DNA from: a virus
IMG/VR virus record: IMGVR_UViG_3300020442_001798
Coordinates: 1-58,084 of that record
DNA: 58,084 nt
Direction: 5' to 3' (one strand)
Part shown: positions 18,780 through 57,165 of the stretch, in pieces
Layout: each line of letters begins with the position of its first letter
Position numbering within the stretch: position 1 is the first letter of the stretch
Translations under genes and position numbers: made by a program
The notes under the pieces: generated by a model
What the model was told of the DNA's origin: nothing
What the model saw: only the letters and a program-made list of their open reading frames with translations
Databases searched by the model: none

Positions 18780-20200
18780 TGCCAAGATACAGGCCGGGTG
18801 CGAGCAGACGGACGGTTTCTTCTAGGTCTGGTGCTATCTCTGAGAATGCTGTTGTTTATTCATCGTCAGGTGGTCACAATCATGACGGTGCTAATTCTAG
18901 TTTGATTGATGTCAACAAATATAGTTTGTGGGATTTTACATTAAATACCATCTACAGTACAAACGATAGAACTTCTAAACAAAACTCTCATATTGAGCAG
19001 TTTAGAAATTATGTAAAGAATATCATTATTAATGATGCTTTTGGGGCTGCTGGTGTCACTTTGGGTGATAATGTTATTAATGCTAACAATATTGTTGCTG
19101 GTTCTATTAGCACTGATCTTTTGAGAACTGATGCTATTAAGTCAACCAACTATAGTTACACAAGTGGTAATTTTAGTACGGCTGGAACATTTTTAAACTT
19201 ATCTGACGGATCAATAATTTCTAAAGAGTTTTTTATTGATTCAAGCGGTAACGCTGGTTTTGCTGGTGCGATTAGTGGCGGTACTATTGATATTGGTGGC
19301 ATAGACTCGTCGTCTTTTCATGTCAATAGTGCTGGCGATATGTGGTTGGGTAGTCCTGTGTATAGTGGTGCGCCTTTTAGGGTCTCTAGAGATGGGGATA
19401 TTGTTGCATCAAGCGCAACTATTACCGGAACTATTAATGCTGATGCTGGTTATCTTGGTAGTAGTACATCGGGTTTTGATATTTCATCAAATTCTATTAC
19501 TTCTCAAGATTTTGTTGCAGGTGGTGAAAATAGCGGTCGTGGTAAGTTAAATCTTTATTCATATGGTGATATTGTTATTGACTCTTCTCCCAATAGCGGG
19601 CCTCATTCTGGTCAGACATATAAAACATCTATTGTTGGTGAGTATCTTTATATAGAAAAAACAAGTTCTGGTGATAAGCCTAAAATTTTAATAGGCAACA
19701 CCACTGGTAATACGGATGATGCCGCAGTTGTTATTTACAAGAACGGTTCCACTAAAGCTTCAATGGCTATGAGTAGTAGTGCTGGAAATGTTCTTTTGTA
19801 CGATTCAGCAGGAACTTTAATGATTAACTTAGTTGGTTCAACTGGAGTTCTGGCTGGTAGAACATTTCAAGCTTATAACTCATCTGGTAGCATGACTGCT
19901 GAGCTAAAGGGTAGTGATGGTAGTATACGGGCAGGAAACATTAATGGTGGATATAACAATACTAACACAAATTCTATTGGTCAGGTTACGATTAGTCACG
20001 GCTTAAATGCAGAGCCTGATTTTGTTGTAGTGACTCCCGCCCAGCACTCAAGTAGCACGCCTGACTGGAACGTGCAGTATGTGGTTACATCTAAAAACTC
20101 TTCAACCTTTACAGTGACGCTCTATGAAGGCTTGAATGATACCGTCGCCAGTGACACTCAGGCGTGCTACTGGTTTGCTGGATTCTCTGTTCATACTTAA
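18779..20200 (+). CDS. Tail fibre-like minor tail protein
   Basis: The 473-residue protein begins with a basic leader and a GGHNHDGANSS motif, a His-Asp-Gly motif common near the start of actinophage tail proteins. The middle is made of repeated short Gly/Ser/Ile strands (about 95-270) of the sort that form trimeric beta-helical fibres. The C-terminal 90 residues form a compact beta domain ending in a QACYWFAGFSVHT strand. The ATG overlaps the previous stop (TAATG). It is probably the last structural part of the tail tip. Confidence 0.65.
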   Translation: MPRYRPGASRRTVSSRSGAISENAVVYSSSGGHNHDGANSSLIDVNKYSLWDFTLNTIYSTNDRTSKQNSHIEQFRNYVKNIIINDAFGAAGVTLGDNVINANNIVAGSISTDLLRTDAIKSTNYSYTSGNFSTAGTFLNLSDGSIISKEFFIDSSGNAGFAGAISGGTIDIGGIDSSSFHVNSAGDMWLGSPVYSGAPFRVSRDGDIVASSATITGTINADAGYLGSSTSGFDISSNSITSQDFVAGGENSGRGKLNLYSYGDIVIDSSPNSGPHSGQTYKTSIVGEYLYIEKTSSGDKPKILIGNTTGNTDDAAVVIYKNGSTKASMAMSSSAGNVLLYDSAGTLMINLVGSTGVLAGRTFQAYNSSGSMTAELKGSDGSIRAGNINGGYNNTNTNSIGQVTISHGLNAEPDFVVVTPAQHSSSTPDWNVQYVVTSKNSSTFTVTLYEGLNDTVASDTQACYWFAGFSVHT

Positions 20201-41995: not shown

Positions 41996-42029
41996 ATTCG
42001 CTGCAAATAAAAACCCCATAAAGTTTTTC

Positions 42030-42060
42030 CCCCGACCTGCAAGGGTCGGGGTTTTTTTTT
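42030..42060 (+). terminator. Rho-independent terminator
   Basis: CCCCGACC (42030-42037) and GGTCGGGG (42044-42051) form a perfect 8-bp GC-rich stem with a 6-nt loop, followed by nine T. It ends transcription of the upstream unit. Confidence 0.9.
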
Positions 42061-42068
42061 GCTATAAT
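42060..42068 (+). promoter_or_regulatory. Extended -10 promoter before the glycosyltransferase
   Basis: TGCTATAAT contains a perfect TATAAT (42063-42068), ending 8 nt before the ATG at 42077. It overlaps the T-tract of the terminator. The start codon has no ribosome site. Confidence 0.6.
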
Positions 42069-42978: not shown

Positions 42979-43074
42979 TTAACATTAAAAAATTGCTGCG
43001 AGCCGGTAAGATTTTTAACGTTAAATAGGGTGGGTTTTTAACGTTAAAGACCCCAGCCTGCGCTTTAACGTTAA
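42979..43074. repeat. Four TTAACGTTAA-type palindromes
   Basis: TTAACATTAA at 42979-42988 and TTAACGTTAA at 43015-43024, 43038-43047 and 43065-43074. The second and third extend to the 12-bp palindrome TTTAACGTTAAA. Centre spacings are 36, 23 and 27 bases. Such arrays are typical binding sites for a dimeric regulator or initiator. Confidence 0.85.
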
Positions 43075-43227
43075 CAAGCTTTCGATTTTTTCACCTATTT
43101 CTTGAACTTTATGATTTCACCTCTAATCTTTATCCTTTCTATTGTGTACCCATTTTCCCGCTGATAGACTGACTTTATGTCAGTTTTCACCTTGCCTATT
43201 TGCAACTCATTTGTTGAGGTAATGTGT

Positions 43228-56785: not shown

Positions 56786-56899
56786 GTCAATATCTAATAG
56801 CATGGTGTCTAAGGAGATCTTAGAACAGGGTTTTACGCTTAGTTTGGTGGTGCTTACTAAGTATGGGTAGCCTTTCATGAAACACTATTAGATATTGAC
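56786..56899 (+). ncRNA. Structured RNA element 1, closed by a 15-bp stem
   Basis: GTCAATATCTAATAG (56786-56800) pairs perfectly with 56885-56899. CATG (56801-56804) can pair with CATG (56876-56879), leaving an AAACA bulge. Inside lie two hairpins: TCTAAG/CTTAGA (56808-56813 with 56819-56824) and CTTAGT/ACTAAG (56838-56843 with 56856-56861, 12-nt loop). It ends 4 nt before the tRNA. No convincing open frame fills it. No known family is recognised. Confidence 0.7.
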
Positions 56900-56903
56900 A
56901 TTC

Positions 56904-56976
56904 ACCCTTATAGCTCAATGGATAGAGCAAATGACTTCTAATCATTAGGTTGCAGGTTCGAATCCTGCTAAGGGTG
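56904..56976 (+). tRNA. tRNA-Arg (anticodon TCT)
   Basis: Complete cloverleaf: acceptor ACCCTTA/TAAGGGT (7 bp), D stem GCTC/GAGC, anticodon stem AATGA/TCATT with loop CTTCTAA (anticodon TCT), T stem GCAGG/CCTGC with TTCGAAT loop, discriminator G at 56976. CCA is not encoded. It reads AGA and AGG, which the phage genes use often, and probably supplements a host tRNA pool poorer in this type. Confidence 0.95.
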
Positions 56977-56978
56977 CT

Positions 56979-57031
56979 AAGAAGCATTAAGCATTATCAT
57001 CGTGGTGGATGGGACACGCTTAATGCTTCTT
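56979..57031 (+). ncRNA. Structured RNA element 2, 14-bp hairpin
   Basis: AAGAAGCATTAAGC (56979-56992) pairs perfectly with 57018-57031. Inside, CGTG (57001-57004) can pair with CACG (57015-57018) as an alternative to the last base pair. It starts 2 nt after the tRNA and is followed by a few T, so it could be a terminator or a tRNA 3' trailer as well as a separate RNA. Confidence 0.6.
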
Positions 57032-57038
57032 TTCAGTT

Positions 57039-57165
57039 TAAGATAGGCTAAGCAATAACTCCTTTCTATATTGTTAAGGAAAACCTGTGCGGTGCTGTTT
57101 GGTTGGAGCAGTTCCGGCATTAAAGGCTTTTATCATATTGGGCTAAAGGTTTTCTGCCTATCTTA
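57039..57165 (+). ncRNA. Structured RNA element 3, nested stems
   Basis: TAAGATAGGC (57039-57048) pairs with GCCTATCTTA (57156-57165). Inside, GAAAACCT (57079-57086) pairs with AGGTTTTC (57147-57154), one base from the outer stem, and AGCAATA (57051-57057) pairs with 57069-57075 through one G-U pair. The central 60 nt can form a further bulged hairpin (TGC-GG-...-GCA). It ends 31 nt before the next gene. Leader or stand-alone RNA are both possible. Confidence 0.6.

Follow-up and report, generated by a model that had tools for sequence, protein, structure and literature searches.

A tRNA-Arg gene near the end of a 58-kb virus record (IMGVR_UViG_3300020442_001798; all 58,084 nt were analysed and are called the window below) stands in a row of three strongly folded elements. 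The question is what these elements are, whether they form a unit with the tRNA, and what they might do. The record contains genes for a tape measure protein, a terminase, a DNA polymerase and WhiB, and judging by the WhiB gene it is probably from a phage of actinobacteria.

The row around the tRNA gene

The sequence-only reading of this region had placed RNA1, tRNA-Arg(TCT), RNA2 and RNA3, in that order, at 56786-57165. All of the coordinates were verified (Table 1), as were the gaps except the one between the tRNA and RNA2, which is 1 nt according to ARAGORN and not 2. The closing stems of RNA1 and RNA2 and the outer stem of RNA3 were recovered as the perfect inverted repeats of 15, 14 and 10 bp they had been taken for, while the inner stem of RNA3, given as 8 bp, is longer by one pair and includes a G-U. 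The claim of folding beyond chance was also borne out; a 390-nt stretch gave z = -6.35, with 0 of 100 shuffles as good, and each single element folds better than its shuffled versions. At this spacing, 25 inverted-repeat pairs were listed over the whole window; of those complementary along their full length, the arms of RNA1 and of RNA2 are the longest. The preceding gene has its stop codon 4 nt before RNA1.

Table 1. Positions of the RNA elements in the window and of diverged RNA1 look-alikes in two other loci
Feature	Position	Strand	Basis
RNA1, member of the three-way-junction class	56786..56899	+	15-bp closing stem; z -4.35; model R1 69.6 bits (window copy part of the model training set); 57-sequence covariation
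RNA1 P1 5' arm, pairs with 56885-56899	56786..56800	+	perfect inverted repeat
RNA1 AUGGUG conserved strand	56802..56807	+	alignment
RNA1 P3 hairpin, 6-bp stem, GAGAU loop 56814-56818	56808..56824	+	stem 6 bp in 128/128 copies
RNA1 P4, variable third arm	56827..56875	+	base of P4 covaries; length differs among copies
RNA1 UGAAACA conserved strand, then P1 3' arm 56885-56899	56878..56884	+	alignment; retained in model-only copies
tRNA-Arg (anticodon TCT)	56904..56977	+	ARAGORN; Rfam RF00005 76.6 bits
RNA2, hairpin with perfect 14-bp stem	56979..57031	+	inverted repeat; z -6.75
RNA3, branched element	57039..57165	+	z -3.10; compensatory changes in L002
RNA3 outer stem, 10 bp	57039-57048/57156-57165	+	
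RNA3 hairpin, 7 bp	57051-57057/57069-57075	+	
RNA3 inner stem, 9 pairs including one G-U	57078-57086/57147-57155	+	
RNA1 look-alike	L154:3590-3676	-	diverged core
RNA1 look-alike	L214:5999-6050	+	diverged core

The window's downstream protein led to a relative, the 70-kb contig L002, where it is 76% identical at the protein level. The row in L002 reads gene, RNA1, an extra folded element, tRNA-Arg(TCT), RNA2, RNA3, gene. The RNA2 stem has another sequence here, yet 13 of 13 positions pair, one of them as U-G (the stem was compared by hand; the MAFFT alignment misplaces its 3' arm). In RNA3, eight pairs of the outer stem and the hairpin are changed on both sides and neither helix is broken. The elements had been proposed to be structured RNAs, and compensatory changes, found for RNA1 throughout its family and for RNA2 and RNA3 in L002, agree with this; it is their conservation with compensatory change in L002 that is decisive for their being real. 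The extra element, at about L002:5552-5690 (+) between RNA1 and the tRNA, has z = -2.36; it matches no Rfam family, and the window has no equivalent.

A tRNA amid three RNAs is not a general unit. RNA1 is independent and widespread, and a search for relatives of RNA2 and RNA3 found them in the window and L002 only. The arrangement is local, and RNA2 and RNA3, which both covary, are known in this phage lineage only. The tight packing of the elements against the tRNA is compatible with release by tRNA processing. Similarly short gaps are seen in L050, where RNA1 lies between tRNA-Arg and tRNA-Asn.

None of the three elements had been assigned to a known family, and no Rfam family matches RNA1, RNA2 or RNA3. 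At gathering scores the tRNA was the sole match to Rfam 15 (4227 families) in the whole window, and in evalue mode the window, L002 and eight small loci gave no match over RNA1. The same holds for 17 RNA1 loci, which yielded tRNA and one pistol ribozyme elsewhere in L065. A Y RNA-like match (YrlA, RF02553) was rejected; it scores 18 bits against a gathering score of 69, spans the tRNA and RNA2, and is driven by the tRNA. When 50,697 phage records were searched by blastn with RNA1 and with RNA2-RNA3 as queries, nothing matched.

Three further features of the window were noted. Three copies of TTTAACGTTAA lie within about 60 nt at 43014-43075 in a non-coding stretch, and these repeats are likely an operator or a replication-protein site. 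A GC-rich hairpin, CCCCGACC..GGTCGGGG, followed by nine T, is located after the terminase gene at 42003-42062 (+) and is a plausible intrinsic terminator. Finally, a 27-nt inverted repeat (85% complementary) at 20041-20181, at the end of a 473-aa ORF and beside the following gap, has no Rfam match.

RNA1 as a family of structured RNAs

The RNA1 core can be written as P1-C-AUGGUG-(6-bp stem, GAGAN loop)-AC-(variable hairpin)-UCAUGAAACA-P1', and the median length is 77 nt. A pattern that fixed AUGGUG, GAGAT and UCAUGAAACA and left the stems free matched 73 stretches of viral contigs. Apart from a few chance matches, all have arms flanking GAGAT that pair into a hairpin, and a closing stem that varies. 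A looser pattern scan followed by model R1 gave at least 65 matches in added loci. RNA1 is found in more than 100 viral contigs, and at least 128 distinct copies have been collected. Since the collection scans required exact core strings, the class is surely wider than this.

The invariance of AUGGUG, GAGAT and UCAUGAAACA in the 57-member set is by construction, since the pattern fixed them, while the covarying stems were not imposed in this way. For the 57 aligned members, 81.8% of the paired cells can pair, compared to 56.4% when shuffled, and the covariation score is 0.629, compared to 0.185 when shuffled and 0.155-0.214 with slid partners. Both sides have changed in 24 of 30 pairs, and in P1 such changes are seen for 14 of the 14 modelled pairs. 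The P3 cells of the 128 copies comprise 730 Watson-Crick, 32 G-U and 2 A-C pairs, and the G-U to A-C ratio of 32:2 indicates that the folded molecule is the transcribed strand. The RNA1 family is almost certainly a new class of structured RNA, and very probably it acts as RNA on that strand. A description of the motif was not found in the open-access literature, and short-query blastn, which is insensitive for so short and variable an RNA, found no RNA1 member in INPHARED or PLSDB. The class is apparently without description so far, being outside both Rfam 15 and the open-access literature, and phages share an RNA device that seems to have had no name.

The single-stranded parts of the core are also conserved. 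AUGGUG, which the search pattern imposed in most members, is retained with small variants in copies found by the model only. These copies also keep UGAAACA, while the two bases preceding it vary; as this CAU side varies without compensation, the AUG/CAU pairing (P2) is not a proven helix. The P3 loop occurs as GAGAU, GAGAG, GAGAA and GAGAC and is GNRA-like, and the fixed length of the P3 stem is what would be expected if the loop docks on a fixed receptor. Two joint geometries dominate, with linkers 1/0 in 65 copies and 2/2 in 39. In a pseudoknot check, the core positions that were compared showed no covarying pairs beyond the known helices; the flanks and loops are too variable for such a comparison.

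Some look-alikes are more diverged, with AUAGAG or CUAGAG replacing AUGGUG and UUGAACA replacing UGAAACA. They are found in L154 and L214 and also in Microcystis phage Mae-JY24, and may possibly represent a second subclass of RNA1; they hint that the class extends beyond the copies collected.

Carriers and genomic positions of RNA1

RNA1 occurs chiefly in tailed phages. Scanning 84,980 genomes brought up 16 stretches with the core, and the copy number is low in most genomes. In the Terriglobus family 11 of 150 genomes contain RNA1, and the neighbours in these Acidobacteria are, where they can be classified, mostly phage genes, e.g., prohead protease and phrog_1029. In three of the Acidobacteria genomes (L233, L235, and L237) RNA1 comes straight after the latter, a family with no assigned function. 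RNA1 is rare in two sampled phyla, with 1 of 247 and 2 of 195 genomes, each count including an already-known genome. Model searches of Thaumarchaeota, whose genomes are MAGs, found 17 copies in one, five in a second and four in a third, several of them just 3' of PQQ-dehydrogenase genes. One Thaumarchaeota MAG (L080:1-8000, +) has three tandem PQQ-dehydrogenase-like genes with RNA1 66-74 nt past each stop codon. In bacteria RNA1 looks like a phage trait, and in these archaea like a chromosomal one.

By the gene calls made for this work, which are approximate, the gene before RNA1 shares its strand at 49 of the 60 loci with a called neighbour. Genes on the opposite strand are commoner after RNA1 than before it. 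In 40 of 128 copies the start of P1 falls between -5 and +11 nt relative to the stop codon of an ORF of at least 75 codons; 6.7 would be expected for random positions, and the mirror control gave 12. A tRNA or tmRNA lies at most 350 nt away in 10 of the 128 copies (about 8%), and tandem or paired copies are seen in L033, L079, L084, L119, and L234. There is no conserved neighbour gene at RNA1 loci, nor does a recurring transposase or integrase adjoin them. A link to HNH endonucleases, hinted at by tallies of downstream PHROGs, was not upheld by Pfam scans of single proteins.

Some copies are located inside genes. RNA1 lies in frame within Mu-like portal genes (PF06074 in L019 and L066; L126 and L190 are similar), within the gene of a second protein (L009, L016, L027, L051, and L118), and within the genes of two further proteins without a family (L181 and L201). 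The translated copies share one frame, which encodes (N/D/H)G(A/V)(Q/P)G(D/E)...HET, and appear to be translated through. P3 of these copies still changes with compensation, e.g., between L019 and L066, and the conservation of RNA1 inside genes would seem to be driven by RNA structure and not by the peptide. A role in stop-codon readthrough or as a SECIS element was rejected; all three stop codons are used, and the frame is open through RNA1 in 23 of 61 cases and closed in the window.

Three loci deserve mention for what surrounds RNA1. A permuted tmRNA gene (L046:3293-3622, -) lies about 67 nt downstream of the RNA1 copy in a phage contig, and a 166-kb viral contig (L010:595-9365, -) has 41 predicted tRNA genes with RNA1 among them. 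In L234:1501-3081 two RNA1 copies in tandem come immediately after a prohead protease gene, and beyond them lies a GmrSD-like restriction gene on the opposite strand, which is possibly prophage defence cargo.

Possible functions and known systems

The reading favoured here, over a self-cleaving ribozyme, a trans-acting RNA or an antiterminator, is that RNA1 is a cis-acting module at 3' ends and between cistrons, and it is given a probability of roughly 35%. RNA1 would fold on its own, in cis, where phage transcripts have their 3' ends and junctions, and the tertiary-folded block would limit the passage of exonucleases so that an RNA end is set and protected. In the window, tRNA processing would leave a distinct folded RNA of about 114 nt at the end of the upstream mRNA, with RNA2 and RNA3 as lineage-specific structured neighbours in the same precursor. 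The covariation, the strand asymmetry, the fixed P3 and the lack of an Rfam match were counted in favour of such a module, and so were the same-strand upstream genes, the proximity to stop codons, the copies 3' of PQQ genes, the tandem copies and the missing U-tract. Against it are the copies in frame in portal genes and those between tRNAs, which are not at mRNA 3' ends, and the fact that a conserved pseudoknot of the exonuclease-resistance type was not seen among the core positions compared. Long perfect stems could give protection by themselves, so the conservation of the unpaired strands points to a more specific purpose. RNA1 is not itself an intrinsic terminator since it has no U-tract; the T fraction is 0.258 after P1 and 0.239 before it, and a run of five T occurs in 1 of 128 copies. 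No terminator-like site was seen on the + strand of the window region.

Alternatively, RNA1 could be a new self-cleaving ribozyme with the unpaired junction strands as its active site, cutting polycistronic and tRNA-array transcripts. Its compact junction, conserved unpaired core and hairpin of fixed length would suit this, as would the wide phylogenetic spread, including archaea, with no conserved neighbour gene; copies between tRNA genes and in tandem are also habits of small ribozymes. However, the portal-gene copies, in frame and translated through in one frame, would mean that essential mRNAs are cut. In addition, none of the Rfam ribozymes matches, and a search for circularly permuted RNA1 found none; what it turned up was a tandem pair (L033) and a single match due to chance. 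A ribozyme is rather unlikely.

It is likewise doubtful that RNA1 is a trans-acting phage RNA, a decoy or protein-binding RNA freed from any transcript by tRNA processing or mRNA decay. The independence of position, with copies after genes, between tRNAs and inside genes, agrees with this, discrete ends would be expected from P1 and tRNA processing, and the conserved core would suit a protein or ribosome target. The hosts are, however, too diverse for a host-specific target, the bias toward positions just after stop codons is strong, and up to 17 copies per archaeal genome, several of them at the 3' ends of PQQ genes, look cis-acting.

An RNA controlling antitermination or elongation by acting on its own RNA polymerase, like put, would work from intergenic and coding positions alike, and the pair in L234 between the prohead protease gene and the opposite gene is where late transcription might need help to get past. 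Such a role is quite unlikely, as copies of RNA1 also lie in archaeal 3' regions and where the 3' end of a gene meets a convergent gene, the host polymerases differ, and neither an antitermination protein nor a terminator is linked to it. Least probable is that the working form of RNA1 is DNA, single-stranded or cruciform (as a mobile palindrome or a recombination or packaging site), and that it is transcribed incidentally: the after-stop position, the presence within unrelated genes, the tandem and multiple copies and a structure more conserved than the sequence would agree, but the 32:2 ratio on the transcribed strand (which G-T pairs in single-stranded DNA could mimic in part), the low copy number in most genomes and the lack of a recurring transposase or integrase alongside make this very unlikely.

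A broader proposal is that RNA1 represents a new class of phage RNA, catalytic or nuclease-stopping, found after genes, between tRNAs and inside virion genes, being either a new self-cleaving ribozyme restrained by translating ribosomes or the first exonuclease-stopping module known from phages. This is put forward tentatively and is less probable than not. The novelty concerns the RNA1 class, whose function could prove to be ordinary. Still, this structured RNA has a firmly conserved core, is carried by well over 100 phage contigs, is repeated many times over in a few archaeal genomes and yet is absent from Rfam, which points to an RNA function kept across hosts, and one that phages tolerate even within portal genes.

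The flavivirus xrRNAs (PMC5760640; some details are given as general background) resemble RNA1 in being compact multi-helix junctions found soon after stop codons and in tandem. In RNA1 no pseudoknot was seen among the core positions compared and there is no Rfam match, and the host nucleases are different. The put RNA of phage HK022 is a cis-acting phage RNA that works from various transcript positions and is built of two hairpins, while RNA1 is a closed junction, and the likeness is by description only. Hammerhead and pistol ribozymes of phages are, like RNA1, compact RNAs built round a junction; they turn up at scattered places in phage genomes with no fixed neighbour, and L065 carries both RNA1 and a pistol ribozyme. 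RNA1, known from sequence alone, matches no Rfam ribozyme, and its in-frame gene copies speak against such an activity.

GOLLD and ROOL are associated with phage tRNAs. They form classes of structured RNA, from bacteria and phages, whose function is unknown (PMC12286853). Both are far larger, ornate and included in Rfam, while RNA1 is about 77 nt and has no Rfam model. The tRNA cluster of bacteriophage T4 contains stable non-tRNA RNAs of unknown function, species 1 and 2, interleaved with the tRNA genes. RNA1 shares with these that it is a non-tRNA RNA found amid phage tRNA genes, but it lies mostly outside tRNA clusters and the likeness is by description only. RNA1 makes the old question of non-tRNA RNAs in phage tRNA arrays testable, and it is small enough for direct assays of cleavage, stability, binding and structure.
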